64,000 nt of DNA from Odiellus spinosus (taxonomy: Eukaryota > Arthropoda > Arachnida > Opiliones > Phalangiidae), in NCBI GenBank assembly GCA_963920705.1, contig OY987236.1:5318190-5382189 (forward strand). The letters are read 5' to 3'. The notes beneath the pieces were generated by a model. It was given only the letters and a program-made list of their open reading frames with translations, was not told where the DNA came from and made no database searches. The position numbers were made by a program, and so were the translations under genes. Of this stretch, positions 7,242-53,571 are shown one piece after another; within the stretch, counting starts at the first letter, position 1; each line of letters starts with the position of its first letter.

Positions 7242-7429
7242 ATGTTCGGATTGCACGCCGCTCATCATCATCACCATCACGGCCAAGAGGGCGTCGGCTC
7301 TCTGGGGGGTCCCCTTCAACCCAGGGGACCCATGGCCACCCTTAAAGAAGAGCCCCTGGGCGCCGCTCAGCTCGGTGCCGTCCGAAGCGGTTGGATGCAA
7401 CCGGCCATGCTTGACCAGACCGCCGCCAG
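7242..7429 (+). CDS. COE: COE exon 1 (coding part): N-terminus
   Basis: Sixty-two codons plus two bases (phase 2), then donor gtaagc at 7430. The ATG at 7242 is chosen because the protein then begins MFGL, as in EBF/knot proteins, and no upstream in-frame ATG was found in this open stretch. Residues 8-13 are six histidines (CAT/CAC). Residues 27-40 read [14 protein letters not shown], close to fly knot (PRGPMTSLKEEPLG, from memory). L34-K35-E36-E37 fits the sumoylation consensus psi-K-x-E; whether it is modified is inference. Residues 50-59 ([10 protein letters not shown]) match the conserved W-M-Q...D block before the DNA-binding domain. Confidence 0.95.
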
Positions 7430-10400: not shown

Positions 10401-13400
10401 AGCCTAATCTCAATAAAACACGAATACAAATATCAGAAGCGCGTGATTTAAGGTTCGTTTGACGCCTGTGAAATATTTTAAAACATTTTTTCGATTAGCT
10501 AAAGGTATTCAAATATTTTTAATCAGTATGAAAATTGAGATTAGGCTTAGCAGAATAATAGACGATTCCATAAAGTCTGACTATGTCCCAACCTTGAAAA
10601 ATGCTAACATCTTCCGTAGAAACGGGTTCTATTTAACGGCTATTTTTGTTAGTTTCAAGGTTGGCAAACGTATAGAAAATCCTATACTTTGAACCAACCT
10701 TGAAAAAACGCTAAATTTTCAATATAAACGGGTGCTTTTTAACGGCTATTTTATTTGTTTCTACATTATTGTAAATTAAAGAGAAATTGTTGATGAGTTT
10801 TAATAACGTTAAAATGAATTAACACTTTCATGGTTTAGCCCAAGGTTAATAATTATTGAATTCTAAAACTGATTATTAATTTAGTGTTGGCGAGGAATTT
10901 ACGTACATATTTTATTACCCACTATAGAAAAAACAATGCTAGTTATTACGCCTACGTTTAAGCTCAATTTTCAAACTATTATGTCCACACAAAAACTGTA
11001 TCTAACCCCCCTATCTAATAATTGCGTATATAACAGAACAAGATTTAATGGGGTAATATCTACTGAATAGTCCTGGTCGATTTCCAAAACCGGAAGTCTA
11101 GAGAACCTCGCGAAAATTTTGGCGGGGAAAACTTTTTGTCACGTGATCGTCCGCCATCTTTTTGTAGTGTGAAAATAGCTACAGACTAACCAACGCCTCC
11201 TATACTTTATCATATAGGAAGCGTTGGACTAACAACTTGAATTTGGTTTGTGGGAAATAAAATTAGAAATAGTCTGGCAACCTGTTACTACAAAAAGATG
11301 GCGGCGCGGCTATGAGACAAGGGCCCATTTCCGGCAAATCGACCAGGACTATAATAATAATATACTACTAAACAAATACTAACTAGGCCTACAGTACTTT
11401 TTTCAATAACCAAATTCTTGGTAAAACGACAACTAAAGCATTATAGTGATGGATACTATATGACCCCTTCACCTATTATATCTCTCTGCTACTATTTTAG
11501 GATAAATTTGTGTTGTAACGCAGTCGAAACTGTGTTAAATTCGTAACTGATACTCAAAATTACCCTAAAATTAAGTATTGACTAACTACATTCAACAAAG
11601 TAACCAAAGTAATTTAAAGAAACAGTTCTTCAAACGAAATTAAAAGTTTAATTTGGTTTGTAAAAGAATCCCACCGTTAACTAATATCTTTTCGCGGGTG
11701 GTACGTGACATATCTCATTCTAATTTGGTTAATTAAACTGTTTAATTTAGGTTTAATCGAACTAGAGACGAAAATGACTCTACAGACCCTGAGCAGTCAG
11801 TCACTTGCCATTTTTGCGTATGAGATTTTAGGATTTAAGTTTTTTTTTTGCGATTTTAAAGCTATTTTTCGGAATGATTTTGAGTTTTTCATGTAGAGAA
11901 GGTTTAGAGATTTCGGGATTTAATAATCTAATTGAGGATAAAACAGCAACCCGCTTATAACATTCGAATTTCCCACCGCTCGTTTTTGCACTAAACTATA
12001 ATAGAATAGTAAATTAATTTGTTTTTTACTAAATTAACTAATTTCTGGCTATGTTTCGTTTTTTCCCGCCTTTTTTCTATTTTTTTACGCCACAAATTAC
12101 GGATGGGACATCAGCGTGGGTCTCGGTCGAGCGCATTTCGAGAAGCAACCTCCGTCGAATCTGCGCAAGAGCAATTTCTTCCATTTCGTCATAGCGCTCT
12201 ACGACAAAGCCGGTCAACCCGTCGAGGTCGAACGCACAGCCTTCGTAGGATTCGTCGAAAAGGACCAGGTCAGTCGGCTTCAGGTCAGGTGACGAACGAG
12301 TGACGTCGTCAGTTTTGACACTAACGTCATTTACTCGTTTCATAATCATTATCATTATATTCCCCGGAGTCAATCCAGTTTAAATAAATTCATTTAATTT
12401 TAATCTAAAGGCTAAGATTGTCATTTTTCTAGCATTTTTAATCTAACGTGTTAAAGAATTAGAAAACCGCGCAATAATAAACGAAACTAATTAGGCTTAG
12501 ATCTTCTAATAATGAATTAGATTACTTCAACGAACCATATTCGTAATTAAGATGGATGAAACTCAATTTTAAATAAACTTACAGCTTAAAAATAATATTT
12601 ACAATTAGGCTTAGGTATTATTTCAACACTAAAATTGCGCTAACCCTTTATTTATAATTAGGCCTAACATTTTCAAATTAGGCTTAGTTGTATCAACACT
12701 ATTAAATCTAAAATAATCTAATTAGGCTTAACCATATAAGATCTCTAAAATAATTCGTGAAATCATTGAAATATGATTAATTACACTCTTTTAACACTAA
12801 ACTAACATTTATAAATAGGCTTAGTTAATTTTAACTGTACAAACAATAAAGTCAAATTAGACTAAGCGACTTCAAAACAAAGAATAATTCAAAACGAATT
12901 CTGACTTCTAAATAATTTAAGCCTAAATCGGGCCTAACAAGTGTGTAAACAAAATATTTATAATTCGAGGCTAATCAAATGATGATTAAAAGATTAAACA
13001 GAACGAAAATTGTTATATAAGTTTGCGAAACCAGGGAAAAACTAGCATTAAATAGTTAAGAGGTTAGCTTTCTAAAGCATCTATCTTAAAAACAGAAAAG
13101 TATAGCGGATAAGAGGAAGGGGTGGATCAATTTAAACATTCAGCGCGGGCGGAGTTAAGTTCGCGCTTTATTCATTAAGAAAACAACTCGTATTGAGCTA
13201 AGCCTTGGCTTCACGAGCGTGCTGTAAACTAGACTAGATTTTAAATCTAACTGTAGAGTAATCGTGAATGAAAAAATAAAGAAAAACGGTATGAGAAAGG
13301 GGAAAGAGGGGGGGTGCGAGCTTGGTTTTAAAAGGTATATATAAAAGCATGGAGAAATGAAGGTGGAACGGGAGGAGCAGGGGGTATAAGGAGTAACTTA

Positions 13401-16400
13401 CTTTAATCTGGGGGTCGTTAAGGAGAAGGGACTGGTAAAGCCGAGGCTTAACGACAAGAAACGAATAGCTCTCCGAGCAATTAAATTCATTAAAAGCTAC
13501 CATGCAAAACATAAGAGCCAAGGAGAGAGACGATAGGTAAGGGGGCAGAGTGAAACCTACTTCATCCGGAAAGAGAGCTACAGAGAGATATAGGAAACGC
13601 GAGAATACATCACTAAGGTATATAAGAATACTGTAAGGAGAAGAAGGAATCTTCGTTTAAAACTATACTCGTGTTCCAAGAAGAGTTGACACGATCTATT
13701 TTATTTTCTATGAGGTTTAAGATTACGTATCCCTTCGCGTCAATATTTCCAATTACACTCTTTCTCTCGAACCAAGTGAAAGTATTTTAAGGCCTTGCCA
13801 ATCTAAAATTGAATGATATTGTATATAATTTACTATTTAAATACAACATTTATTAATTATAAGTATATTTATATACTAAGAATTAATTTGTGAATCTGCA
13901 AATGGTTTAGTCGGTGAATAGTTTAATGATTAAATTAATCAATCTATTTAACTTTTTAAATTACTTTGAGTTTTGCGAACTAATCAATACAAAAATCTGC
14001 TTGTTTATGTATTACTATCTATTAGATAATTAGGTTTAAATGCCACAATTTTTTATATTTAAGGAGAATGAAATTATAATTTTACGGATTCATTTGAAAA
14101 AATTCAAAAATATGGTTTTGGGGTTATCCAAAAATAAGCTTTCTACTTTTCCTCGCGGATTTAAACACCAATCTTATTAATTAACGTAGATGATAAAGGT
14201 ACAATGAACTGTTTAAAAAAATATTTAGTTACAAATTACCCAAAGAAAGCTATGGCGCCATAGATAATGTTAAAACAGTGTACTGCTTTGTATATGATTT
14301 AAAACTAAATTCTATTCAACTGTAAAACTGAACAAATTAACGATCAATACCATTGCAAATTCAAAATGATATGAACTACATATATTCGAGGAAAGATACA
14401 AGCGTGCATTGCAGTTCTTGTAGGAGAGGGACCCTCAACAGTTTTGTCTAGATAGTGGAATGGTGTGGTGTGGTGGGAGAGGGTTTGGACTATCTCTGAA
14501 ACGCGGTTATCCGTGGCGGCTCGGTAACCGTTTCGTCGTAGCGGTGTCGAGCAAATGAGTCGCGATAAATCGCCTCTCTAGATTTTAATTCCGCTACAAT
14601 TCCAACCACCCCTTTTCACTCCACCCCCCCCCCTTATAACCCCTTTTCATTCGGATACTCTCCAACCTTGAAAAGATTCACCTAGAATTCACGTAAACGT
14701 TTATTTTACCAACTTTTCAAGGTGTCAAATTTAATTTTTGGGATTATCAAATAATGGATTCGTATTAAAACTAATTTTACTTTTTGAAAAAAAATATTAA
14801 GATGTTTATTCTTTTAGCACGAATAATATCAGAAGTAGATGAAACCCTCCTTTGAAGTCTACTACTCTAATGTTCGATATAGCGCTCCTCTCTGTATGGG
14901 TAAAATTCACAATTTTACGAGATCGGAGGGGGTCCTACTTCATACCCATTGTCTACGGAAAATTGGAAATTCTCTTTCTCCACAAACGAGGACGTTTTTT
15001 GGACGAACTCCAAGGCTGCTAGAGATATTCGCTCGACGAACTCCCGCTCCGAAAATATCTACCATTAGGAGGTGTACGAATCGCGTTTTTTGAAACTAAC
15101 CCATACAGAGAGGGGTAGACAAGACCAGGGAGTAATAGACTTCAAAGGAGGGTTTCATCTACTTCTGATAATATTTACTTCAAAGTATCAAAGGAAAGGA
15201 TAGAATAATATTCAATTTTATAAAAATGCCATTTATGAATAAGTGAAGTAATAGTTATTCCTCCGAAAGGTGGTTGAAAAATCAACTAAGTTTTAATTTA
15301 CAACAACAAATATTTGAAAAATATTTCTAAGAAACTTTTGGCCTTTCCTATTTTTTAAAGATTAGACTTAAATTTAATTTTCTTGTCAAAATTATAACAA
15401 CGCGTTTTTAAAAGCCTTAATTGTAAATAAAAAAATTAGATTCAAATAAAAATCGGTGAAATTTTAGTTTAAATACGTTGCTTCTTAGATCGCAACTACC
15501 TACACAGAACGTTAAAACTATCTGAACGAATGAAGCCTAAAGTTAGTTATCTAGATAGTGTAAGAGTAAAAATAACCAAAGAAAAATAGCTTTAAACGTA
15601 TTGCTTCGAATGAAAAGCGTGGGTTTCCGACCCCTTTAAAAGTAAGAGGAAGAACCCGAATCAGACTAAAGGGGCGTGGGTGAGGAGGAAGAAGCGCCCT
15701 TAGGATAGGATCTAGTACTAGGAAAACGAGAGTGGAAGGCAGCGCATTTAATTACGAGTATCCGACCCCTTTCTCATTAGCCTAACTCGATAAGAAAGTT
15801 GCACCCATTACACATCTCGAGGCCTTGCCCGTCTCTCTCTCTCATACTCTTATACGCCCGGAGAATATACACATACATTTTAGTTTCACTTTCAGTTGTA
15901 GTTTACAGCACGCGCGGAGTTATAATTTTTATAAAACAGTGCAGAAAATATTCTAATACGGTATTAAAGTGATAATGAAGCCGAACATGGACTCGTGGAG
16001 AGTTTAAAATCTAGTTAAATTAATTATACTAGTGAATTTTGCATATTTAAATGATGAGAAATTGATAGATAATCACTTATATCAGAAGCCGATGAAACCC
16101 TCCTTTAAGTCTACTACTCCAATGTTCCATATAGCGCTCCTCTCTGTATGGGTAAAATTCACAATTTTACGAGTTAGAAGGGGCCCTACTTCATTCCCCC
16201 TGTCTACGGAAAATTGGAAATTCTCCCTCTCCACAAACGACGACGTTTTTGGACGAACTCCAAGGCTGCTAGAAATATTCGCTCGACGAACTCCCCCTCC
16301 GAAAACATCTACCGTTAGGAGGCGTACGAATCGCGCCTTTTGAGAATAACCCATACAGAGAGGGGTAGACAAGACCCGGGAGTAATAGACTTCAAAGGAG

Positions 16401-19400
16401 GGTTTCATCGGCTTCTGCTTATATTCGGGTTGCAACTGCATTCTTCCTTTTAACGCATCTCTACTAGGTTTCACAATCTCTTTTAAAAAAATGAACTTAA
16501 AAATTCATATTTTAGTAAAAAAATAAAAAGGCAAAATAATATCTCCATAGCGGTACTTAAAAATATTTGTTTTATATGACAAAATATTAAAGCAACGAAT
16601 TTCTTCAAGCGTGAAAAGGGTATAATATTAAGTAAAAGGATTTAGGAATAAATCTATATATATTCTTTTAGTGTTTTAAAAACCGTGTCGTCTGTTAATA
16701 AATAAACAAAAGAGCTCTAGCACGCGCCAGGGGAAGTCGCGATGGAGAAAGTATACCTTCATATGATAGCTAGGAGGAGAAAAAGCTAGAGGCCAAAAAC
16801 GCGGGAGAAAAAAAAAATCAATATAGAAAGCGCGCGCTGGCATTAACGGTAGAGTGTACACATTTATGCCTAAGCTGCTAGCGATGGTGGATCCATATAG
16901 GGCTAAAACAATGTTGTTACAGACACAGAGGTCCAATGCCTATCTTATTTTTTTTCCTCCTTCTATAACGTTCCCCGCCACCTCCCACTACCTTCTCTAG
17001 CTAGCTCCGAGATTGCACGCGCTCGGAGTCTCATCCTCATACCCTGCCTTCAGACGGGAGTTTCCCCGCTTTTCTTAAATCCCACGGGAACACCCATTTC
17101 TCCTTACCTATACGCTTCCTAGCCCTAAAGGAGAAGGAAGGAAAAGCTAAGCCTAACCACCCACTACGCGACGTATACGTAGTCGGCTAACTCTAGCGCG
17201 CGACTCCCCCGCTCGCGCGAGATACGACCAACGACAGAGCGCGAGCTACATCAACCATATACTATTCTAGAAAAGGGCGGGAAATAACGGCGAGAACCTT
17301 TCTCTTATGGCGGGCGAGCGCGCGACCCCCCTTTATTGTGTAAAACGCTTCCAGTGATTCACCCAAGCGTTAATATTTCGTAAACATTACGAAAGAAAGA
17401 AAGCGCGGGAAAAACTGGCGGGAAAGAGGAGGGAAGAACGAGACTAGGAGGAAAAAAAAACCTCGCCGGGCAGAAAACACTTTTCAAAAACGAAAAAAAA
17501 ACCCACCATATAACAGCTTCACAATGCGAGGACAATTCGCAAGAATGACTTACCCTCCTTCATTCTCCTTCTTAAGATCATAAGGAACGCCATGTTAAGC
17601 CTATTTTTAACCTAAATGTTAAGGACGTGACAATAGGGTTAAATCACTTTGAACTAAATCGATTTCACAGCGCGCGAAAAAGTCACAACGCATCTGAATT
17701 AGATTTTGGTATATTTCGAACTGGTCTTGATCAGGAGTATAATAATTGTTAACTTGATTGGCTTATTTAAAAACTGCGAATGAAAATACTTGCCCCTCGT
17801 GGTGCGCCTCTTCGAGAACACCGAAGCATAACGGCTGGAACACTTTTACAGGGGCTGATAGGAAATACATTACACGGTTTCATCCTGAAGTCGAGCTTCC
17901 CATGACTAATATATCAGGAGCCAGAGTCAGAAATTAGTTTGAATTGTACCAAATAGAGCATACATGATTTTAAACTAGTCAAATTCTAACGTATATTAAT
18001 AATAATGTCATAGAAAGCCAATATTTCATTGGAGCCATTTTTCCCTTCATTAAAGATCGCAGATATTTTAATTTAAAAGCTGTATATTTAATTAAGGTGA
18101 CCTTACGCCTTCTTTAAATTAAAATAAGCGCATCAATTTGGTCTTAAAATCGGGTAAAATTCCTCTTAGCACAAAAAAAAACAAAAACTACAGTACTGTC
18201 AGCACTTTTAAAAATAACAGCTTAAGCGCTAATCCACCCCAAATGATTTAGTACATTTATAAACGTTTTACCTTCACTTTAATCCCTCTTCCCATTTCAT
18301 ACCGCGTGTATAATTCTGATCCATTTTGTAATACACCCATTTTCCTACGGATGAATGCCCAAATATTGAAATAACCTAAATCGTCTCGTTACACGCACTT
18401 CACTAGAGAGAAAAACATATTTCAACCCCGCGTTGACGCAATATTGATATAAAATTGATATAAAACACACAGACAATAACCAACCAAGCAACCGCAGTAT
18501 TGAGCTAGCACCCCTCGAGCTATCATCCAATGCATTCGCAAAAATTTCAACAATGAAGATGATTTTATACCGTAATTCTTTTCAATAATATCAAAGCTAA
18601 CATTAAAGCTATATAGCTGCCTGTTCTCGACAAAAAAAAAGCTGATTACGAATATGTTACCGAGTTAAATGTCAAGTCTCACGGTAAATATAGTAGTTAA
18701 GAATGGATTTTGATCAATAACTAATTTTTGGCACCTTTAATTTAAAAGAAATATGGAAGCACATATTTTCTAAACCATGCTTCCACGCAAACTTGAACAA
18801 TGAAAGTTTAAATAAAAAATTGTACACTAAAATCGATTATATATTAATTTAAACAAATCTCAACTTCGTTAATTAACTGTAAATTAACAATTTTAACACT
18901 CTAGTTCTTTATAAAGGTTTGAAAAAACGATTAGCAGACGAATTTTAGATATGGCTACGATGTATTTAAATATTCTTTGGTGCATAAAGAACGAATTCTT
19001 GTTCGAATTTAAATTAATCTAAATTAAGACCTTTCTCTTAATCATAAAAAAAGTTATGTCTACGAATTAAAACTGAAGAGAAAATTTTAGAAATAGTTTT
19101 AAATATAACACTTTTTCCGTGACGTCAAACGCGTGGGTCAAAACTTAAATATTCAAATTCACGCCTGTTTTTTTAGATTTTTTAAAGCATTGTAGACCTA
19201 AATGTGATATTTATCTCGTATAATATTAATGATCTACAATTTATTTTAATTATTACTTACTACTATCATTTAATATTTAGTTTAAACGTATAAAAATGGA
19301 ATAAATATGATATAATTAAATGCCAATGATTTTATTTTGAATCTTTATCCAATTAAAAATGCGAATTTACACGAGACTTGTACTTTAACCCGGTATCACT

Positions 19401-22400
19401 GCCATACAGAACTTACACTAATTCAACTTCGTCCCATGGACAATCTAAGCAGTAACGCGTCATCCTGCATATAAAAAAATCTACTGGTGGGGGTCAATTT
19501 TTGCAGGTGGACTGGGGGCCGATTTTATCAAAGCGCAAGGGGGAAATAAGTTTGGAAATGTCAATAGAGGGTCAAATTGTCGAATTATATTGAACCAATA
19601 TCGTCAAAGCTGTTAGATGAAATACTTGCCCCTTATACAACACAATATTAACTGAAATAGAATGATGAGCTAAAGTCAATTCTACCTCGAGTTGGCAGCG
19701 CGTACAAAGCTAAGATCCCTTTTATTTCAAAGTAAAATAAACAAGACAACGGAAATATTTAAGCTTGTACACGGAGTCCATGAGGCTATGGACGCTTTTG
19801 ACTCAATTTGAGTACTATATCTCGGTAACAGCCTTATAAAGGGACTAAAGGGAGAATGAAACAGACAAAGTTTTAGTTTTTTTATCAATTCCTCACTGAT
19901 AAAATGGGAAAATCCTGTAGGCCCAAACAAATATTAATCTATAAAACAAATAATTTATTCGAAAGTAGGCTTAACAAGGATCCATTGATAGTTTGAAATC
20001 TCACCGTTAACAGTATCCAAGCGAAAAAAGGGCGCCTCTTAACATAAAACGCGTGTTTCCCACGTGATTCGCCATGCAGAGTCTATTAAAGGGCAAAATT
20101 TCAAGTATGGATCCCTGTTAAGCCTACTTTTAGAATAAAGTTTGATTTTTTTAACTAGTAAATTAATTAGACCTATTTTAACGATAAATCTATTTCTGTT
20201 TCATCTTCATTATCCCTTAGAAAGCCAGTTTCACAATGTTAATTTCGGTCCTTTTCAAGGTTTTAACTTAATATATATTAGGATGGACGAGGAAACCAGA
20301 CGTAATAAGCCGGGACAATGGAAAATGTACTTCCAGCCTTAGTGAATATTTTTCCTCCTAGTTTTTAGGCTTAGGGGGTTTCGACTCCCACTGCACTGCT
20401 CCGCACTCCTCCATGTTTACTTAATATCGTATATAGGAAAGGGGAAGGACCTTTATAATACACGTGTTAGCTCGGACACTAATGGAATTAGAATACCCCA
20501 CGATACCCTGTTTGCTCATGTATGAACGGGTGGGAATAGAAAAAAAAAACGACAATATGCTGAACGTAATACAACCAATGCAGTATTTCGTAGAGACATA
20601 AGGCTTTTAATACGTTGGTTGTGACATTACTCTATAATAGATTTTGGTTTTAGGGTATATACTGCTCGCGTAACTAGTTTGATTATTACTCAAAGTCAAT
20701 ACATTAATCTCAATGAAGATGCCAGGATCATATTATATAATATACTCCAGTTGGTGCTCAGTTGTTTGCAGGAACTATTTTCAACCACTATAAGATATAA
20801 TATTGCGTCTTAATCCGCCTTAACGTTAGCTATATTCTGCAAAGTTTAAGGCATTAGAAAGAAGACATTCCCTAGATTATTTTAAAATCATAAAATTCTG
20901 TTTCGCCACTCGAAAAGGATGTTTCGTCACTCGATGGAAATCGTACAAAAACCCCAAAAATGACCCCTATCTTAAAATGGCCGTAACTTTTCTTTACGAT
21001 CTCCTAGGCATAGAACAATGGCATAAATAGAAAGAAGACATTCCCTAGATTATTTTAAAATAATAAAATTCTGTTTCGCCACTCGAAAAAGATGTTTCGC
21101 CACTCGATGGAAATCGTACAAAAACCCCAAAAATTACCCCTATCTTAAAATGGCCGTAACTTTTCTTTACGATCTCCTAGGCATAAAACAATGGCATAAA
21201 TAGAAAGAGGACTTCCATTAGATTATTTTAAAATCATAAAATTCTGCTTCGCCACTCGAAAAAGATGTTTCGCCACTCGATGGAAATCGTACAAAAACCC
21301 CAAAAATGACCCCTATCTTAAAATGGCCGTAACTTTTCTCTAGGATCTCCTAGGCATAAACCAATGGCATCAATTGAAAGAAGACATTCCCTAGATTATT
21401 TTAAAATCATAAAATTCTGCTTCGCCACTCGAAAAAGATGTTTCGCCACTCGATGGAAATCGTACAAAAACCCCAAAAATGACCCCTATCTTAAAATGGC
21501 CGTAGCTTTTCTCTAGGATCTCCTAGGCATAAACCAATGGCATCATTTGAAAGAAGACATTCCCTAGATTATTTTAAAATCATAAAATTCTGCTTTGCCA
21601 CTCGAAAAAGATGTTTCGCCACTCGATGGAAATCGTACAAAAACCCCAAAAATGACCCCTATCTTAAAATGGCCGTAGCTTTTCTTTACGATCTCCTAGT
21701 TATAAAACAATGGCATAAATAGAAAGAGGACTTCCATTAGATTATTTTAAAATCATAAAATTCTGCTTCGCCACTCGAAAAAGATGTTTCGCCACTCGAT
21801 GGAAATCGTACAAAAACCCCAAAAATGACCCCTATCTTAAAATGGCCGTAGCTTTTCTCTAGGATCTCCTAGGCATAAACCAATGGCATCATTTGAAAGA
21901 AGACATTCCCTAGATTATTTTAAAATCATAAAATTCTGCTTCGCCACTCGAAAAAGATGTTTCGCCACTCGATGGAAATCGTACAAAAACCCCAAAAATG
22001 ACCCCTATCTTAAAATGGCCGTAACTTTTCTTTACGATCTCCTAGGCATAAAACAATGGCATAAATAGAAAGAGGACTTCCATTAGATTATTTTAAAATC
22101 ATAAAATTCTGCTTCGCCACTCGAAAAAGATGTTTCGCCACTCGATGGAAATCGTACAAAAACCCCAAAAATGACCCCTATCTTAAAATGGCCGTAGCTT
22201 TTCTCTAGGATCTCCTAGGCATAAACCAATGGCATCATTTGAAAGAAGACATTCCCTAGATTATTTTAAAATCATAAAATTCTGCTTCGCCACTCGAAAA
22301 AGATGTTTCGCCACTCGATGGAAATCGTACAAAAACCCCAAAAATGACCCCTATCTTAAAATGGCCGTAGCTTTTCTTTACGATCTCCTAGTTATAAAAC

Positions 22401-25400
22401 AATGGCATAAATAGAAAGAGGACTTCCATTAGATTATTTTAAAATCATAAAATTTTGCTTCGCCACTCGAAAAAGATGTTTCGCCACTCGATGGAAATCG
22501 TACAAAAACCCCAAAAATGACCCCTATCTTAAAATGGCCGTAACTTTTCTCTAGGATCTCCTTGGCATAAACCAATGGCATCAATTGAAAGAAGACATTC
22601 CCTAGATTATTTTAAAATCATAAAATTCTGCTTCGCCACTCGAAAAAGATGTTTCGCCACTCGATGGAAATCGTACAAAAACCCCAAAAATGACCCCTAT
22701 CTTAAAATGGCCGTAGCTTTTCTTTACGATCTCCTAGTTATAAAACAATTGCATAAATAGAAAGAAGACATTCCCTAGATTATTTTAAAATCATAAAATT
22801 CTGCTTCGCCACTCGAAAAAGATGTTTCGCCACTCGATGGAAATCGTACAAAAACCCCAAAAATGACCCCTATCTTAAAATGGCCGTAACTTTTCTTTAC
22901 GATCTCCTAGGCATAAAACAATGACATAAATAGAAAGAGGACTTCCATTAGATTATTTTAAAATCATAAAATTCTGCTTCGCCACTCGAAGGAGATGTTT
23001 CGCCACTCGAAGGAAATCGTACAAAAACCCAAAAAATTACCCCTATCTTAAAATGGCCGTAGCTTTTCTTTACGATCTCCTAGTTATAAAACAATGGCAT
23101 AAATAGAAAGAGGACTTCCATTAGATTATTTTAAAATCATAAAATTTTGCTTCGCCACTCGAAAAAGATGTTTCGCCACTCGATGGAAATCGTACAAAAA
23201 CCCCAAAAATGACCCCTATCTTAAAATGGCCGTAACTTTTCTCTAGGATCTCCTTGGCATAAACCAATGGCATCAATTGAAAGAAGACATTCCCTAGATT
23301 ATTTTAAAATCATAAAATTCTGCTTCGCCACTCGAAAAAGATGTTTCGCCACTCGATGGAAATCGTACAAAAACCCCAAAAATGACCCCTATCTTAAAAT
23401 GGCCGTAGCTTTTCTTTACGATCTCCTAGTTATAAAACAATTGCATAAATAGAAAGAAGACATTCCCTAGATTATTTTAAAATCATAAAATTTTGCTTCG
23501 CCACTCGAAAAAGATGTTTCGCCACTCGATGGAAATCGTACAAAAACCCCAAAAATGACCCCTATCTTAAAATGGCCGTAACTTTTCTTTACGATCTCCT
23601 AGGCATAAAACAATGACATAAATAGAAAGAGGACTTCCATTAGATTATTTTAAAATCATAAAATTCTGCTTCGCCACTCGAAGGAGATGTTTCGCCACTC
23701 GATGGAAATCGTACAAAAACCCAAAAAATTACCCCTATCTTAAAATGGCCGTAACTTTTCTTTACGATCTCCTAGGCATAAAACAATGGCATAAATAGAA
23801 AGAGGACTTCCATTAGATTATTTTAAAATCATAAAATTCTGCTTCGCCACTCGAAAAAGATGTTTCGCCACTCGATGGAAATCGTACAAAAACCCCAAAA
23901 ATGACCCCTATCTTAAAATGGCCGTAACTTTTCTCTAGGATCTCCTAGGCATAAACCAATGGCATCAATTGAAAGAAGACATTCCCTAGATTATTTTAAA
24001 ATCATAAAATTCTGCTTCGCCACTCGAAAAAGATGTTTCGCCACTCGATGGAAATCGTACAAAAACCCCAAAAATGACCCCTATCTTAAAATGGCCGTAG
24101 CTTTTCTCTAGGATCTCCTAGGCATAAACCAATGGCATCATTTGAAAGAAGACATTCCCTAGATTATTTTAAAATCATAAAATTCTGCTTCGCCACTCGA
24201 AAAAGATGTTTCGCCACTCGATGGAAATCGTACAAAAACCCCAAAAATGACCCCTATCTTAAAATGGCCGTAGCTTTTCTTTACGATCTCCTAGTTATAA
24301 AACAATGGCATAAATAGAAAGAGGACTTCCATTAGATTATTTTAAAATCATAAAATTCTGCTTTGCCACTCGAAAAAGATGTTTCGCCACTCGATGGAAA
24401 TCGTACAAAAACCCCAAAAATGACCCCTATCTTAAAATGGCCGTAACTTTTCTCTAGGATCTCCTTGGCATAAACCAATGGCATCAATTGAAAGAAGACA
24501 TTCCCTAGATTATTTTAAAATCATAAAATTCTGCTTCGCCACTCGAAAAAGATGTTTCGCCACTCGATGGAAATCGTACAAAAACCCCAAAAATGACCCC
24601 TATCTTAAAATGGCCGTAGCTTTTCTTTACGATCTCCTAGTTATAAAACAATTGCATAAATAGAAAGAAGACATTCCCTAGATTATTTTAAAATCATAAA
24701 ATTCTGCTTCGCCACTCGAAAAAGATGTTTCGCCACTCGATGGAAATCGTACAAAAACCCCAAAAATGACCCCTATCTTAAAATGGCCGTAACTTTTCTT
24801 TACGATCTCCTAGGCATAAAACAATGACATAAATAGAAAGAGGACTTCCATTAGATTATTTTAAAATCATAAAATTCTGCTTCGCCACTCGAAGGAGATG
24901 TTTCGCCACTCGATGGAAATCGTACAAAAACCCCAAAAATTACCCCTATCTTAAAATGACCGTAACTTTTCTTTACGATCTCCTAGGCATAAAACAATGG
25001 CATAAATAGAAAGAGGACTTCCATTAGATTATTTTAAAATCATAAAATTCTGCTTCGCCACTCGAAAAAGATGTTTCGCCACTCGATGGAAATCGTACAA
25101 AAACCCCAAAAATGACCCCTATCTTAAAATGGCCGTAACTTTTCTCTAGGATCTCCTAGGCATAAACCAATGGCATCAATTGAAAGAAGACATTCCCTAG
25201 ATTATTTTAAAATCATAAAATTCTGCTTCGCCACTCGAAAAAGATGTTTCGCCACTCGATGGAAATCGTACAAAAACCCCAAAAGTGACCCCTATCTTAA
25301 AATGGCCGTAGCTTTTCTCTAGGATCTCCTAGGCATAAACCAATGGCATCATTTGAAAGAAGACATTCCCTAGATTATTTTAAAATCATAAAATTCTGCT

Positions 25401-28400
25401 TCGCCACTCGAAAAAGATGTTTCGCCACTCGATGGAAATCGTACAAAAACCCCAAAAATGACCCCTATCTTAAAATGGCCGTAGCTTTTCTTTACGATCT
25501 CCTAGTTATAAAACAATGGCATAAATAGAAAGAGGACTTCCATTAGATTATTTTAAAATCATAAAATTCTGCTTCGCCACTCGAAAAAGATGTTTCGCCA
25601 CTCGATGGAAATCGTACAAAAACCCCAAAAATGACCCCTATCTTAAAATGGCCGTAGCTTTTCTCTAGGATCTCCTAGGCATAAACCAATGGCATCATTT
25701 GAAAGAAGACATTCCCTAGATTATTTTAAAATCATAAAATTCTGCTTCGCCACTCGAAAAAGATGTTTCGCCACTCGATGGAAATCGTACAAAAACCCCA
25801 AAAATGACCCCTATCTTAAAATGGCCGTAGCTTTTCTTTACGATCTCCTAGTTATAAAACAATGGCATAAATAGAAAGAGGACTTCCATTAGATTATTTT
25901 AAAATCATAAAATTTTGCTTCGCCACTCGAAAAAGATGTTTCGCCACTCGATGGAAATCGTACAAAAACCCCAAAAATGACCCCTATCTTAAAATGGCCG
26001 TAACTTTTCTCTAGGATCTCCTAGGCATAAACCAATGGCATCAATTGAAAGAAGACATTCCCTAGATTATTTTAAAATCATAAAATTCTGCTTCGCCACT
26101 CGAAAAAGATGTTTCGCCACTCGATGGAAATCGTACAAAAACCCCAAAAATGACACCTATCTTAAAATGGCCGTAACTTTTCTTTACGATCTCCTAGGCA
26201 TAAAACAATGGCATAAATAGAAAGAGGACTTCCATTAGATTATTTTAAAATCATAAAATTCTGCTTCGCCACTCGAAAAAGATGTTTCGCCACTCGATGG
26301 AAATCGTACAAAAACCCCAAAAACGACCCCTATCTTAAAATGGCCGTAGCTTTTCTCTAGGATCTCCTAGGCATAAACCAATGGCATCATTTGAAAGAAG
26401 ACATTCCCTAGATTATTTTAAAATCATAAAATTCTGCTTCGCCACTCGAAAAAGATGTTTCGCCACTCGATGGAAATCGTACAAAAACCCCAAAAATGAC
26501 CCCTATCTTAAAATGGCCGTAGCTTTTCTTTACGATCTCCTAGTTATAAAACAATGGCATAAATAGAAAGAGGACTTCCATTAGATTATTTTAAAATCAT
26601 AAAATTTTGCTTCGCCACTCGAAAAAGATGTTTCGCCACTCGATGGAAATCGTACAAAAACCCCAAAAATGACCCCTATCTTAAAATGGCCGTAACTTTT
26701 CTTTACGATCTCCTAGTTATAAAACAATGGCATAAATAGAAAGAGGACTTCCATTAGATTATTTTAAAATCATAAAATTTTGCTTCGCCACTCGAAAAAG
26801 ATGTTTCGCCACTCGATGGAAATCGTACAAAAACCCCAAAAATGACCCCTATCTTAAAATGGCCGTAACTTTTCTCTAGGATCTCCTAGGCATAAACCAA
26901 TGGCATCAATTGAAAGAAGACATTCCCTAGATTATTTTAAAATCATAAAATTCTGCTTCGCCACTCGAAAAAGATGTTTCGCCACTCGATGGAAATCGTA
27001 CAAAAACCCCAAAAATGACACCTATCTTAAAATGGCCGTAACTTTTCTTTACGATCTCCTAGGCATAAAACAATGGCATAAATAGAAAGAGGACTTCCAT
27101 TAGATTATTTTAAAATCATAAAATTCTGCTTCGCCACTCGAAAAAGATGTTTCGCCACTCGATGGAAATCGTACAAAAACCCCAAAAACGACCCCTATCT
27201 TAAAATGGCCGTAGCTTTTCTCTAGGATCTCCTAGGCATAAACCAATGGCATCATTTGAAAGAAGACATTCCCTAGATTATTTTAAAATCATAAAATTCT
27301 GCTTCGCCACTCGAAAAAGATGTTTCGCCACTCGATGGAAATCGTACAAAAACCCCAAAAATGACCCCTATCTTAAAATGGCCGTAGCTTTTCTTTACGA
27401 TCTCCTAGTTATAAAACAATGGCATAAATAGAAAGAGGACTTCCATTAGATTATTTTAAAATCATAAAATTTTGCTTCGCCACTCGAAAAAGATGTTTCG
27501 CCACTCGATGGAAATCGTACAAAAACCCCAAAAATGACCCCTATCTTAAAATGGCCGTAACTTTTCTTTACGATCTCCTAGTTATAAAACAATGGCATAA
27601 ATAGAAAGAGGACTTCCATTAGATTATTTTAAAATCATAAAATTTTGCTTCGCCACTCGAAAAAGATGTTTCGCCACTCGATGGAAATCGTACAAAAACC
27701 CCAAAAATGACCCCTATCTTAAAATGGCCGTAACTTTTCTCTAGGATCTCCTAGGCATAAACCAATGGCATCAATTGAAAGAAGACATTCCCTAGATTAT
27801 TTTAAAATCATAAAATTCTGCTTCGCCACTCGAAAAAGATGTTTCGCCACTCGATGGAAATCGTACAAAAACCCCAAAAACGACCCCTATCTTAAAATGG
27901 CCGTAGCTTTTCTCTAGGATCTCCTAGGCATAAACCAATGGCATCATTTGAAAGAAGACATTCCCTAGATTATTTTAAAATCATAAAATTCTGCTTCGCC
28001 ACTCGAAAAAGATGTTTCGCCACTCGATGGAAATCGTACAAAAACCCCAAAAATGACCCCTATCTTAAAATGGCCGTAGCTTTTCTTTACGATCTCCTAG
28101 TTATAAAACAATGGCATAAATAGAAAGAGGACTTCCATTAGATTATTTTAAAATCATAAAATTTTGCTTCGCCACTCGAAAAAGATGTTTCGCCACTCGA
28201 TGGAAATCGTACAAAAACCCCAAAAATGACCCCTATCTTAAAATGGCCGTAACTTTTCTTTACGATCTCCTAGTTATAAAACAATGGCATAAATAGAAAG
28301 AGGACTTCCATTAGATTATTATAAAATCATAAAATTTTGCTTCGCCACTCGAAAAAGATGTTTCGCCACTCGATGGAAATCGTACAAAAACCCCAAAAAT

Positions 28401-31400
28401 GACCCCTATCTTAAAATGGCCGTAACTTTTCTCTAGGATCTCCTAGGCATAAACCAATGGCATCAATTGAAAGAAGACATTCCCTAGATTATTTTAAAAT
28501 CATAAAATTCTGCTTCGCCACTCGAAAAAGATGTTTCGCCACTCGATGGAAATCGTACAAAAACCCCAAAAATGACACCTATCTTAAAATGGCCGTAACT
28601 TTTCTTTACGATCTCCTAGGCATAAAACAATGGCATAAATAGAAAGAGGACTTCCATTAGATTATTTTAAAATCATAAAATTCTGCTTCGCCACTCGAAA
28701 AAGATGTTTCGCCACTCGATGGAAATCGTACAAAAACCCCAAAAACGACCCCTATCTTAAAATGGCCGTAGCTTTTCTCTAGGATCTCCTAGGCATAAAC
28801 CAATGGCATCATTTGAAAGAAGACATTCCCTAGATTATTTTAAAATCATAAAATTCTGCTTCGCCACTCGAAAAAGATGTTTCGCCACTCGATGGAAATC
28901 GTACAAAAACCCCAAAAATGACCCCTATCTTAAAATGGCCGTAGCTTTTCTTTACGATCTCCTAGTTATAAAACAATGGCATAAATAGAAAGAGGACTTC
29001 CATTAGATTATTTTAAAATCATAAAATTTTGCTTCGCCACTCGAAAAAGATGTTTCGCCACTCGATGGAAATCGTACAAAAACCCCAAAAATGACCCCTA
29101 TCTTAAAATGGCCGTAACTTTTCTCTAGGATCTCTTTGGCATAAACCAATGGCATCAATTGAAAGAAGACATTCCCTAGATTATTTTAAAATCATAAAAT
29201 TCTGCTTCGCCACTCGAAAAAGATGTTTCGCCACTCGATGGAAATCGTACAAAAACCCCAAAAATGACCCCTATCTTAAAATGGCCGTAGCTTTTCTTTA
29301 CGATCTCCTAGTTATAAAACAATTGCATAAATAGAAAGAAGACATTCCCTAGATTATTTTAAAATCATAAAATTCTGCTTCGCCACTCGAAAAAGATGTT
29401 TCGCCACTCGATGGAAATCGTACAAAAACCCCAAAAATGACCCCTATCTTAAAATGGCCGTAACTTTTCTTTACGATCTCCTAGGCATAAAACAATGACA
29501 TAAATAGAAAGAGGACTTCCATTAGATTATTTTAAAATCATAAAATTCTGCTTCGCCACTCGAAGGAGATGTTTCGCCACTCGATGGAAATCGTACAAAA
29601 ACCCCAAAAATGACCCCTATCTTAAAATGGCCGTAACTTTTCTCTAGGATCTCCTAGGCATAAACCAATGGCATCAATTGAAAGAAGACATTCAATAGAT
29701 TATTTTAAAATCATAAAATTCTGCTTCGCCACTCGAAAAAGATGTTTCGCCACTCGATGGAAATCGTACAAAAACCCCAAAAATGACCCCTATCTTAAAA
29801 TGGCCGTAACTTTTCTTTGCGATCTCCTAGGCATAAAACAATGGCATAAATAGAAAGAGGACTTCCATTAGATTATTTTAAAATCATAAAATTCTGCTTC
29901 GCCACTCGAAAAAGATGTTTCGCCACTCGATGGAAATCGTACAAAAACCCCAAAAATGACCCCTATCTTAAAATGGCTGTAGCTTTTCTCTAGGATCTCC
30001 TAGGCATAAACCAATGGCATCATTTGAAAGAAGACATTCCCTAGATTATTTTAAAATCATAAAATTCTGCTTCGCCACTCGAAAAAGATGTTTCGCCACT
30101 CGATGGAAATCGTACAAAAACCCCAAAAATGACCCCTATCTTAAAATGGCCGTAGCTTTTCTTTACGATCTCCTAGTTATAAAACAATGGCATAAATAGA
30201 AAGAGGACTTCCATTAGATTATTTTAAAATCATAAAATTCTGCTTCGCCACTCGAAAAAGATGTTTCGCCACTCGATGGAAATCGTACAAAAACCCCAAA
30301 AATGACCCCTATCTTAAAATGGCCGTAACTTTTCTTTACGATCTCCTAGGCATAAAACAATGGCATAAATAGAAAGAGGTCTTCCATTAGATTATTTTAA
30401 AATCATAAAATTCTGCTTCGCCACTCGAAAAAGATGTTTCGCCACTCGATGGAAATCGTACAAAAACCCCAAAAATGACCCCTATCTTAAAATGGCTGTA
30501 GCTTTTCTCTAGGATCTCCTAGGCATAAACCAATGGCATCATTTGAAAGAAGACATTCCCTAGATTATTTTAAAATCATAAACTTCTGCTTCGCCACTCG
30601 AAAAAGATGTTTCGCCACTCGATGGAAATCGTACAAAAACCCCAAAAATGACCCCTATCTTAAAATGGCCGTAGCTTTTCTTTACGATCTCCTAGTTATA
30701 AAACAATGGCATAAATAGAAAGAGGACTTCCATTAGATTATTTTAAAATCATAAAATTCTGCTTCGCCACTCGAAAAAGATGTTTCGCCACTCGAAAAAG
30801 ATGTTTCGCCACTCGATGGAAATCGTACAAAAACCCCAAAAATGATCCCTATCTTAAAATGGCCGGAGCTTTTCTCTAGGATCTCCTAGGCATAAACCAA
30901 TGGCATCATTTGAAAGAAGACATTCCCTAGATTATTTTAAAATCATAAAATTCTGCTTCGCCACTCGAAAAAGATGTTTCGCCACTCGATGGAAATCGTA
31001 CAAAAACCCCAAAAATGACCCCTATCTTAAAATGGCCGTAACTTTTCTTTACGATCTCCTAGGCATAAAACAATGGCATAAATAGAAAGAGGACTTCCAT
31101 TAGATTATTTTAAAATAATAAAATTCTGTTTCGCCACTCGAAAAAGATGTTTCGCCACTCGATGGAAATCGTACAAAAACCCCAAAAATGACCCCTATCT
31201 TAAAATGGCCGTAACTTTTCTCTAGGATCTCCTAGGCATAAATAGAAAGATTATTTTAAAATCATAAAATTCTGCTTCGCCACTCGAAAAAGATGCCACT
31301 CGATGGAAATCGCACAGAAACCCCAAAAATGGCCGTAACTTTTCTCTACAGTAGCCACATGACCATAGTTATGACGTAGTATTGCGGGGAATTTTTATTT

Positions 31401-34400
31401 CAAAATTTTCGAAAATGTGATTAATAAATAGATATTTTTACTGTTGCGACAACTATTTTTATCCCTTATTAATATTTAATATAGTGTATAAATACGCCTC
31501 ACTTTTCGCTAAATTGCAAATATACTCGTAAGCATTTAAACATTGTATAGCGCGGTGTTTACACTAAAGAGAATATATTTGGTGTACTTCTGTTATTTAT
31601 TTAGCTGTTAACTTATTAACTAAACTCTAGTACGCGGATACTATCAACTCCTAGCTTTCCCAGTCATATAAACATAATTAAAGCCCGCAAAATATGCAAA
31701 TTAAAGACTATTTGGTTCTGATCTTTGTTTTGTTTGAATTTGCAGGAACCAGAAGGTCAGAAAACAAACAATGGAATTCATTATCGATTACAACTTCTAT
31801 ACGCAAATGGTAAGTACCGTAAGTTGAGTTTTCAATTCTAATTTAAAACTCTGAAACCTTTACTGACGCATGTTACAAATTAAACAATCAAAAATTACGC
31901 GAATATTAAAGATATTTCAACGTAAAACGTTCGCGATGTAGATAATATCATTTAAATTTACTTAAATAACTATTTTGATTAAATTAGGTTGTTAGAGATT
32001 ACTTATTTTAAAATTCCCTGACTTTTTCTCTTACCAATTTTCACGTTTTACTAAGAGGTAAAAAAAAGTGAAATCACATGGTTTTTCGCCATCTAAAACG
32101 TGCAAGTATTCGATTCCCCGACTTTTTGGACAATATCAAAATTCCCTCTGGTTATAAATAGTAAAGAAAAGTATTAACAAGTCAAAATAGCATAAATTAG
32201 GCTTAATTCAAAAACTGCGAACATGGTAGCGCGATATAAATTCAAACCCCGGAATCACTGTTTTATCACAAGGAGTCAGGGTGGAAGCAGACGACAATTC
32301 GATAAGAAATAGTCTAAGCACGCGGTAATATAAACGGAAAAAGGCTATATAATCGAGCCGAAGGGTAACGAGCTGAAGGGAAGACATATAACTAAACCGG
32401 AAGTGACCCTCTGGAAAATCGCCTCCTTATTCCGGCCAATTAGACCAACTAAACCCTGACGTTCCCAATTCGCCCAGCTTGACAACGCTATAAAAATCAA
32501 GGGCAGGCTTCCCATACAATTTCATTGTCAGAATCTGTTTGAAACTACAGCTAGTACGATGTTAAGGCACCCCTTAATCCCCGGTTAAAGATTATTAGAA
32601 ATAGAGGGTAGACTATAGGTTTCAACGTGCTGTAAACTACGAGAGGTTCGTACCATATAGGAAGTAAAATCAAGAGCACCCATGCCTGTCACAATGGTGT
32701 CATTAAAGGGAAAATGAAAGGGAATATTTAATTTTTAATCGTGGAATTAAAACTAACTTGTATGAGAATAGTTGGATACGTTTAGCCTTAAAGACAAATT
32801 TATCCTTAATTATTAATGGTAAAATATTAAATATAAAATTAAAACAAAAACGCGCGCCTCTAGAGGTCTAGTTGAAAACTAATCATGCCTGAAGACAAAT
32901 TTGTTTCCGGGTACGTTAAAAATGGATTTCTATAGCTTCATTTACACATATACTTAAATGAATAGGCATATTATAACGATATAAAAAGCAATTATCAAAC
33001 TTATTTTACTTGTAACAACAATACGCGCGTTATAACCTTTGTCGTTGACTTAAATTGCTCCGTGCATAGTTGCAAACAAAATTTCCCTATTGATAAATGG
33101 CAAATGAGTCGAACCACAACATATGGTGATCTCTGTGCTCGCCTGCAATTTTGTTTGCGAAGCAAATATTATTATCAACAATTTTTAATATATACCCAAG
33201 TTAATATACACAAGAGATAAAATTTAAGGGTCATTTCGGTCATCCTCTATTTCTGTCCAAGAATAACGAATAGATTAATTATAACAGGAAATAGAAGGCG
33301 AAGGGTGTCCAACGCAATTGTAACAAGAATCAGAACAACCTTGGAAAAGGCGGGATTAAATTAGCGTCAACTAATCACGTTCCATTAATTAAATTTATTT
33401 GACTGCAGTCAAGAATATGGGAACATAAAATATGATAAACCCTTCCTCGTATATTCAATGATTTAATAAAATGAAATCCGTCAATATTGGCGTAAAACAA
33501 TAATGCCTAGATTACGTAATTACAGCCCAATGAGAAAAAAAAATTAACTCTAGAGTTCATTCTACTACTTTAAGAGAGATGACAACGCGAATAGCAGACG
33601 AATTTGGAGTACTTTCTTTTGTAGTCTTTATTTATTTGTTTATCGGAACCAATATAGACAAGGTTTCAAAATTATGGAAATATACTTTAGGACAATTTTC
33701 TTCACTGACTAATTCGCGAAACGAAACCAACTTCCAAAAACGGGTCTAACTCTAATTACGCGACTAAAGCATTATTTAAATTAGATCTCCTTCCGATTAA
33801 GACTTTTTCTTTTTTACATTTGACCTTCCCTTTAACTAGGGGTGGTCTTATATATATTGTCGAGACGGGTTAGTGGGGGGATCAACACATTCCAAACGAT
33901 TGGAGAATGAAGGGTGTATCACGCAGTGGCGTGGTGTAGAAGATATAGTTGTAGGGTGCTATAGACAGTTTTATGGTCGCCAGGGCGCTAAAATAGGGGT
34001 TTTGGTTTTTCTGGCTCGTCAGCTTTTTGACAATCCTACTAGGATTAAATAGGCAGAAGGGAGAGACAAAGCTTACGTAACAATGGAAACCTAACTTTAT
34101 CCAATGGGTGGGAAATTTTACGAGACCGACTAAATTTGGAGCGGTAATAAAAAAAAAGAACCTTACAATCGCACGGATTATTTCGTTCATTGTAATCTAA
34201 ATGAAGCAAGTTCTGTATTATTTTTATATCCTAAATTAATTAACGTTATTTTAAACTACATTTAAATTAACAGACTATTCCAGACAGGGCTGGGTTCATA
34301 CAATAATTGGAAAACCCAATTTCCCTGACTTTTCCAGGTTTTACCAGAGGTTTTTAAATAATAGACAGTTTAATAATTGTGTTATTTTGGGTCCCCAATC

Positions 34401-37400
34401 AAAAAGTGCCCCTAATTATGAGATAATACCCATAGAGTGGAGCCCCAATCTAAAAAGGGTTCTTGAACCATAACGAACTCCCAATTTTTAGTACGTTCGA
34501 TTTGATTGTTATAAACCAAAAGACTTGTTTAGAAATTTATCTACGGCTAAAGGAATAAAATAAAAATATTACCGCCTTGTTTAAGAGCCCACTAAATCTA
34601 GTATCACACTGAGGACCCTCAACCCCTCTTGTTATTAAATAAACCTTTAAATTCTAGTGTCTTCATTAGTATTCCCAAGTCTACTTAGAAGTGCCATAAT
34701 CTAGGAGGGAGGATCTCTTCCTATTATATTAAAGCGATACAATTAGCTGAAATGAAGATTACTTATGTAAAAATATGCTTCCCTGAATTTTTTCATAGTA
34801 AAAATTACTATTAGAATTTTTTTTTTAAAGTTTTATATCCTAAATATCAGAAGCCGATGAAACCCTCCTTTGAAGTCTATTACTCCCGGGTCTTGTCTAC
34901 CCCTCTCTGTATGGGTTATTCTCAAAAGGCGCGATTCGTACGCCTCCTAACGGTAGATGTTTTCGGAGCGGGAACTCGTCGAGCGAATATCTCTAGCAGC
35001 CTTGGAGTTCGTCCAAAAAACGTCGTCGTTTGTGGAGAGAGAGAATTTCCAATTTTCCGTAGACAGGAGGGGATGAAGTAGGACCCCTTCTAACTCGTAA
35101 AATTGGGAATTTTACCCATACAGAGAGGAGCGCTATATGGAACATTGGAGTAGTAGACTTCAAAGGAGGGTTTCATCGGCTTCTGTAAATATGCATTTGA
35201 ATTTTTCTACCATTACCAACAAGCCAATCACATTCTCACAAAGCTATTGTTTATATCCTCCCCGAAATTCAATCGGTGCGTGTTTGCGTGGTTAATCAAA
35301 CTTGTTGGCATAATATATTCAAAAAATTAAATTTCAAACTGGATTCGCAAAATCTTGGGCAAATTTAGCTATTGTTTCCATCCTCCCAAAAAAAATGTAA
35401 TTCAATTGGCGCGTGTCTGCATGGTTAACCCAAACTTGTTGGCTTAAAATAAAAAGCGCGTGGCAATCAAGTCTCTAGAGATTAGATCTATCTCTATATC
35501 CGGATAAGGATTTTGGTCTACGATTCCCTAAGATAAGGAAAGAGAAGGATCTCGAGGTTGGCCTTGCGGTCGTTTAAGAGATCTGGCTGGAGTTAGAAGC
35601 ACGAGGGCTAGCTGCTGTTGGGCAAACGGCGTCTCTGTCTAGGTTCGTCCGTGGGGAGAGGACTTGTTAACCACTCCCGAAGGAGCGCTTTTTATAATGG
35701 CCTTTCCAAAAAAAAATAAAAAAAAAAAAAGCTTGCCCGAACCCACACACACACAGAAAAACCAAGGAAAAAAAACTACTATTTTCTTTTCTCGTGTTAT
35801 CTTGGTTATCAAGGTGCCTTCGCGAGAAATCGCGGGAAAAATATATATCCAGCAAAGCCATGCTTTGAGTTACTCAGACGAGTTTTACAATTTTTTAATA
35901 AGAATATGAAAGGCGGGAAAAATTTAGATCGAAATCACGTGACTTTTTTTTTTATAGATAAAGAAATAGCGCGAGTCAATTCTCGCGCAACCTTTTGAAC
36001 TTTTCCCGCAAATATTTCCCGCCAAAAATATTAGTTGTGAAGTTAAGGTTTATTTCATACCTTATAAATCATATCCAAATACGGAATTTCAAATTAGAGG
36101 CTTGAGAAATTCTTTAAGTTTGTTGTTATTGTGTTGGCCCACCCTTATATCTTAGGATGAGTGTTGTTGGGCAAGCTTTTTCCAGTCATCACGTAGACAT
36201 AGTGATGCTGTCGACGTGCTCGGTAGTCCCCCCGCTGTCCGTTCACCAAAGACTTTTGGGGATTAGGCTCGATATACCCCTTCCCCTCTCATTCTATAGA
36301 AGATGGTTCGAGTAGTTTCCTCCCCCCTTCGAGAAGTGGACAGTAAAATCAATAGGGTTTTCACTCCCCCCCCCCTTGTCTTCGGGATCCTTTTCTCTTT
36401 GGCAATAATGTGGGTCAAGCGATGACCAGATCTTTTGCGTTTTATCGTTTCTAGCCTTTATAACCTTCCTCCCCTTTACCCGCAATTTTTTAAAATTAAG
36501 TAAAGATGCATGGAATCTTCTATATTGAAAAGTAAACAGCCGAATACTTTTCTTCTATGAGATTTAAAGGGATAATGAAGTCAGTCAAAAATGAATTTAC
36601 TATCATTTTTATATCATTAATATAAGTTGTTTCAATGATTGAAGGTTCGGATACCTGACAAAATTCCGTACACTTTGTCGCGAATTCCAAAAATCTCTAA
36701 AACGTTCTTTACTGGGAAGTCCTTAAACTTACTCGGAAAGAAGGCTTAACAAGGATCAATCCTTGGGCGAAACGAGTAAAAGCGCGCGTCTGTTGAGTCG
36801 TTTTACTGCGATTGACGAGACACTATTTGACGTTGAAATTTCCCACTTTCCGCGAATCCTTGTTAAGCCTACTTTCCGAAATAGTAATCCGCCTAGTCTT
36901 TCCCAAACTAATTTTTAATCATTTTTACCTCTTCAAATTGGTTAATTTAGTAAGTTAGTTAATTTATAAAGTAGTAGAATATTTTTGGGATTAAATTGCA
37001 ATTGGAAGGGGGGCTAAATTGTTCCCCAAAAATTATTTAAAACAATTTTAGTCCTATTTTACATTGCAATTCATTAGGAAATTATTGCCCAAATGAATTT
37101 TCAACTAGCCCCTGTAAAAGTGTTCCTGCCTTCGCGCTTCGGTGTTACGGTTAAAGCCTAACCATCAGGGGCATAGGGTCCTATTTTGTAGAAGTTATAG
37201 TGCTATAATACCAAGGAGAAAATTAACGCTTATAAAAACCTTTTTTTATCAGCTATTTTAAATTTAAATAGAATTAATATTAATAAAAGTGAATTTGTGT
37301 CTTTTTAGGAGTTCGACAAGAACAAGACCTTCACGTCCGTCTCATAGATTCCGTTACAAAACAGGTGAGTCCACAAAAAAACTTTAAAAACGTTTAAAAA

Positions 37401-53185: not shown

Positions 53186-53571
53186 GTAGGACCCAATATT
53201 TTTATTTTCCCATTTGCACCGGTGTTCTATTTAGAACAAACTTTGGTTTCTAAATATGTGGTGCGTTCAGAACCGAGCGCACGTGCTGTTAAAGTTGAAT
53301 TCAATCGAGCGGTAATATGTAAAACCTCCAAAACCCGGGTTGCAACGTCTGGCGAGATAAAACCGGAAACTTTTGTAATTGCTAGAAATAATTTCGATCG
53401 GAATTTTGAAGCACCACCACGCGCCTTAATTGATATATCAAAAACGGAACTACATTCTTCTTAACGGTATTTAATATTAGGTGTTCCTACGCCGTATAAT
53501 CGTCAATTATGTATTTTCCGACTTGGTCATGATTATGAAGAGTGGGAAGAAAAGGGTCTTCATAGATTTAA

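Follow-up and report, generated by a model that had tools for sequence, protein, structure and literature searches.

A 173-bp satellite array in intron 2 of a COE gene of Odiellus spinosus: probable local amplification within a dispersed satellite family

Dispersed satellites, including copies within introns, are documented in beetles and flies. In the beetle Tribolium castaneum, dispersed TCAST repeats are reported to be enriched in introns (PMC5844308), and recombination and circles have been proposed for their spread (PMC5844308, PMC4537270). TCAST1 repeats, intronic ones included, are described as repressing the genes with which they are associated after heat stress, with histone H3 lysine 9 di- and trimethylation (H3K9me2/3) (PMC4537270). 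Further related cases are the Drosophila 1.688 satellite (PMC7642928), the Drosophila genes kl-3 and kl-5 (PMC6508621) and the Helentron-borne satellite-like arrays of the Pacific oyster (PMC7492417). Here we describe an array of a 173-bp satellite in a stretch of 64,000 nucleotides of the arachnid Odiellus spinosus (assembly GCA_963920705.1, contig OY987236.1, positions 5,318,190 to 5,382,189), hereafter called the window, where it lies in intron 2 of a gene encoding a COE (EBF) transcription factor. We consider it very probable that a dispersed satellite family has here been amplified locally, from few founders, into a euchromatic array, which would be transcribed and spliced out. Because dispersed and intronic satellites have such precedents, the array alone changes no general view of these repeats.

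Tandem Repeats Finder (TRF) resolved positions 20855-31242 into 59.9 copies of a 173-bp unit, with 93% matches, 1% indels and a score of 17615. The array thus measures about 10.4 kb, or about 10.5 kb with a decayed tail that extends to about 31349, and its head-to-tail units of more than 100 bp in an array of kilobase size place it among satellite DNAs. These values agree with the original prediction, made from the sequence alone, both in the coordinates and in the existence of about 60 monomers at 173-bp spacing, the first 57 of which are in register. Shifted against itself by 173 bp, the array shows an identity of 0.926, as against 0.36 at a shift of 172 or 174 bp, a difference far beyond chance. 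When the sequence was cut every 173 bases, monomers 1-57 stayed in register without any indel, and each differed from the consensus at 13 positions or fewer. Monomer 58 contains one extra 21-bp sub-repeat and is followed by about two more monomers and then, as judged by BLAST, by truncated pieces; the left edge of the array is sharp and the right edge decayed. The strongest periods of dinucleotides in the monomer are 9.1, 19.2 and 34.6 bp, with no clear 10-bp signal, and a scan of the window against Rfam returned nothing at gathering scores.

The variants carried by the monomers point to the way in which the array grew. The 57 in-register monomers represent 30 distinct sequences, the commonest of which occurs nine times, and their 9,861 bp contain 39 segregating positions with only 13 singleton variants. 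Shared variants are linked in blocks, so that marker positions 9, 132, 140 and 154 form eight combinations, and one stretch of five monomers (30-34, counting from 0) is copied exactly as monomers 35-39. The array had been predicted to hold only scattered substitutions; substitutions there are, but they are not scattered, since the monomers combine a small number of linked blocks in different ways and rarely carry a change of their own. Block mosaics, exact multi-monomer repeats and the paucity of private mutations together suggest that the array grew recently, by unequal exchange or conversion within a small set of monomer types, and that new mutations have had little time to arise.

As regards the gene itself, PF16422 (COE1_DBD) was detected above cut-off at five places on contig C14, three of them inside the window (12110-12337, 52082-52156 and 53103-53192). 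A tblastn search with EBF1 residues added exon 3 (31743-31811) and exon 4 (37308-37364), and a weak match near 7335 (E = 0.14) is a candidate first exon. Exon 2 stops at 12268 with GT next to it, while exon 3 is preceded by TTTGCAG and followed by GTAAGT. Intron 2 is therefore 19,477 bp long, and the array ends 396 bp upstream of exon 3, in keeping with its predicted place in a COE intron about 400 bp from exon 3; the near-nucleosomal unit length of 173 bp and the long, regular array in that intron are likewise supported. The window array, the one array examined in this respect, accordingly has a gene-containing location. Since it sits between canonical splice sites, it would be transcribed in the COE pre-mRNA. 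We envisage that a few founder monomers may have reached COE intron 2, that the array could then have expanded to about 60 copies via unequal exchange, slippage or conversion between in-phase monomers, and that it would now be copied into the pre-mRNA and excised with intron 2. Its sense strand contains two AATAAA hexamers (at 21062 and 31117) and zero ATTAAA, GTAAGT or GTGAGT, and with so few polyadenylation and splice signals the array may be easy to tolerate.

The search of the whole assembly (443 Mb in 286 contigs), which the original prediction had proposed as a check, revealed a dispersed family. A 347-bp query, for which 38 of the 1,273 first-look candidates were scored, gave at least 245 matches in the genome. 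The 34-bp core of the monomer, which consists of two TTCGCCACTCG units 21 bp apart, was found 4,533 times genome-wide with up to three mismatches (1,569 forward and 2,964 reverse), including 61 times in the window, and a control search with the reversed pattern gave 0 matches. Counting one core per monomer, the family would amount to roughly 0.8 Mb, or about 0.2% of the genome. Exact matches to an 18-mer of the core number 469 (58 in the window), and those to a stretch of the same length as the core from the other half of the monomer, with one degenerate base, 2,565 (60 in the window). Related arrays thus exist at many places, on at least 13 contigs (C1-C8, C11, C13, C14, C16 and C17) among the matches listed. 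Most of them form short groups: with a 5-kb gap, 39 sites were obtained among 78 of the 100 listed 18-mer matches (469 in total), a grouping in which one long run on C11 was entered by its first and last match only, so that two sites are one array. Longer runs elsewhere span at least 17.4375-17.4605 Mb and at least 5.2503-5.2688 Mb of C11, and 6.9158-6.9333 Mb of C3. The 173-bp satellite was not found under any name in the literature surveyed, which is no proof of its being unpublished, and the papers returned by a text search for the motif TTCGCCACTCG were apparently unrelated, judging by title and abstract opening.

Within this family the window array has an identity of its own. One of its 34-mers occurs 57 times genome-wide, always inside the window array, and the mean identity of its monomers is 0.944, compared with 0.667-0.855 to the other loci compared. 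Identity within arrays also exceeds that between arrays for L003, L005/L008, L006 and, narrowly, L002, but not for L001 and L046; L035 is a single monomer, so the within-array comparison covers the other loci only. The scarcity of AATAAA is a further local trait, which arises because the monomers of the array read CATAAA. AATAAA is present in five of the six other array consensuses (L035, which also has AATAAA, is excluded from this count). A 21-mer with AATAAA occurs 233 times genome-wide, 2 in the window and 231 outside, and the corresponding CATAAA 21-mer 174 times, 47 in the window and 127 outside, with 92 of its 100 listed matches falling into the single run at C11:5.2503-5.2688 Mb. The CATAAA variant being common to this large run, a single founder suffices to explain the difference, and we rejected selection against intronic polyadenylation signals as its cause.

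Another reading holds that the array is functional. Seven array consensuses were compared, L005 and L008 being treated as one array and the degenerate single monomer L035, which lacks some of the core, being set aside: of the 33 columns in the core 3 vary, whereas outside it 51 of 138 do (Fisher p = 0.0015). No other 33-bp stretch varies so little, and the core also occurs more often in the genome than a stretch of the same length from the other half of the monomer. On this reading the core might bind a protein, or the array might silence or phase chromatin, and COE expression would be tuned in either case, for which the repression of Tribolium genes by intronic TCAST1 repeats after heat stress offers a precedent (PMC4537270). 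Yet the core was chosen after the alignment had been seen, the probability that the quietest 33-bp stretch is so quiet being 0.047, and within the window array it is not clearly quieter than the rest (6 of 34 positions segregate, against 33 of 139 others); for these reasons its conservation across arrays is suggestive only. The core is moreover a feature of the whole family and not special to COE, and there is no CENP-B box, a feature of some centromeric satellites only, the best match reaching 6 of the 9 required bases whichever strand is read. We thus regard a functional array as quite unlikely. We would give slightly less credence still to the more specific proposal that the core is a selected protein-binding box and that some 60 spaced boxes, with almost no sense polyadenylation signal, are kept as a copy-number-tunable element of COE transcription or chromatin. 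Arrays of this kind can matter by precedent, and a role of the window array in COE is conceivable, as are the effects on nucleosome phasing, silencing or the speed of transcription that the original prediction had suggested. ATTCCC was also considered as an EBF half-site and discarded, as it is a half-site only and is absent from the L003 and L005/L008 consensuses. With respect to the assembly, some multi-monomer stretches are exactly repeated, which assemblers can miscount, but there is no N anywhere in the window, the COE exons flank the array in their proper order, and its private 34-mer speaks against a mis-join from an array assembled elsewhere; an artefact in the array or its length is thus very improbable.

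The remaining explanations concern the origin of the array. Its unit is near one nucleosome in length and the array is long and homogeneous, features which had led to the suggestion of a centromeric or heterochromatic nature and could mark a displaced or nascent centromeric or pericentromeric satellite. This suggestion found no support: none of 20 contig-end stretches (10 kb each, from 19 contigs, with 12.5 kb of N) contains the monomer, although centromeres may be missing from the assembly; in the two end stretches given to TRF, at the starts of C20 and C6, a different, 382/383-bp satellite takes up nearly all of the sequence; and the matches listed show the family spread along the contigs in many short groups. 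A centromeric origin is accordingly the least probable of the readings considered, and on this evidence the array is best read as an ordinary euchromatic one and not as centromeric. Somewhat less improbable, though still unlikely, is that the array represents the internal repeats of an element resembling a Helentron, a Helentron-associated interspersed element (HINE) or a foldback element, which would have inserted in the intron and expanded. Carriers of such kinds are known (PMC7492417, PMC4079207), a high-copy repeat adjoins the right end of the array and a weak dispersed repeat lies just to its left, and the COE gene also holds a foldback element bearing another satellite. A repeat of about 340 bp is, furthermore, present twice upstream of the array (14830-15170 and 16083-16417) and, inverted relative to these copies, downstream of exon 3 (34848-35185), the copies being 97% and 92% identical across the array. 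As they enclose exon 3 besides the array, these copies are not its ends, and we read them as a separate interspersed repeat. The flanks of L001/L047, L002, L003, L005, L006, L046 and the window have nothing in common, in a small sample with few arrays readable on both sides, and only two short flank matches, both involving L035, were found among the loci compared, at which array edges also fall at differing monomer phases. No direct or inverted repeats were seen around five short arrays spanned on both sides. The right-flank repeat, in the two copies inspected (L037 and L038), holds no monomer and is probably unrelated to the array. For want of shared flanks among the few arrays compared, and of satellite in the two inspected copies of the adjoining repeat, the transposon carrier was set aside as unlikely.

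Local amplification from few founders within a dispersed family therefore remains the reading that we prefer, and no host benefit is needed to explain the array. Some observations weigh against it. At L001 monomers are 0.826 identical within the array and up to 0.840 identical to others, and at L046, with two monomers only, the values are 0.866 and up to 0.882, so that homogenisation is uneven between arrays. In addition, the core appears more conserved than the rest of the monomer, which pure drift would not predict, with the reservation that the core was delimited after the fact. On balance the array is real, tidy, apparently recent and of a known kind.

Table 1. Features of the window discussed in the text (positions within the window)
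Feature	Position	Strand	Evidence
COE exon 2, matched coding part, up to GT donor	12116..12268	+	tblastn with EBF1, PF16422, donor
Weak dispersed repeat, left flank of array	20757..20840	+	9 non-self matches, 74-85% identity over 54-98 query bases
57 monomers of the 173-bp satellite, all in register	20855..30715	+	TRF, 173-base splitting, 39 segregating sites, 13 singletons
Array right end (21-bp-sub-repeat monomer, two monomers, truncated pieces)	30716..31349	+	TRF rows 30763-30816 (extra sub-repeat) and 30590-30989; BLAST
High-copy interspersed repeat adjoining array right end	31345..31480	+	2,047 first-look candidates, 40 scored
COE exon 3, AG acceptor to GT donor	31746..31809	+	tblastn with EBF1, splice sites
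Foldback-type element, COE intron 4	46458-51978		inverted arms and target duplication

The foldback element of COE intron 4 (Table 1) has inverted arms of 1,206 nt that are 99% complementary, ends reading GGCTCCGTCAAC and a 9-bp target duplication, AATTTATAG (10 bp counting one G). Of 47 matches to its end, 30 reach an identity of 98% or more; these make up 15 inverted pairs, the window copy included, which argues that the element was recently active. Each arm contains 149-bp repeats (3.3 copies) and the middle 382/383-bp repeats, whose 382-bp unit is, in its best matches, 92-94% identical to the satellite with which C20 and C6 begin. A satellite-bearing foldback element has a precedent in Tetris/TIR-220 of Drosophila virilis (PMC4079207). 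As to other contig starts, those of C8, C12, C15, C17 and C18 carry short tandem repeats with units of about 14-23 bp by eye (L020 and L023-L026, first 80 bases), unlike those of C10 and C14, which carry CCTAA telomere repeats of the TTAGG type. The repeat at the right end of the array starts near CTACARTAGCCAC and ends near TTTTTACTGTTG, its matches cover the first 100-139 query bases, and it is possibly a miniature inverted-repeat transposable element. Further tandem arrays lie in or next to COE introns, one of a 253-bp unit (2 copies, 40715-41219) and one of a 32-bp unit (14.9 copies, 52449-52926). The former was considered as a relative of the monomer, but the similarity (59 aligned bases, 69%, E = 0.001), which is between two AT-rich sequences, is probably due to chance. 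The observed/expected ratio of CpG is 1.21.

The locus is cleanly assembled and shows a satellite that has expanded within an intron of a developmental regulator; the copying of multi-monomer blocks can still be read from it, and it could be used for testing the tolerance of introns for large tandem arrays. Among the systems described so far, it resembles Drosophila kl-3 and kl-5 in the presence of a satellite within an intron, but those are reported as megabases of simple repeats with demonstrated transcription (PMC6508621), whereas here 10.5 kb of a 173-bp unit would be transcribed by virtue of its position. The Helentron-borne satellite-like arrays of the Pacific oyster are likewise tandem arrays dispersed over the genome; they are described as lying in elements with defined flanks (PMC7492417), in contrast to the arrays compared here, for which no shared flanks were found. 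Like the 1.688 satellite, for which euchromatic arrays near and within genes, Netrin introns included, are reported, the window array is associated with a gene, yet relatives of 1.688 form a heterochromatic satellite (PMC7642928), and a heterochromatic counterpart of the 173-bp family did not turn up in the 20 contig-end stretches. With TCAST it shares dispersal of the family in euchromatin and presence in introns. The euchromatic TCAST repeats are, however, reported to be mostly single and without local clustering of sequences (PMC5844308, PMC4537270), whereas the COE intron of O. spinosus holds about 60 units with variants of their own.

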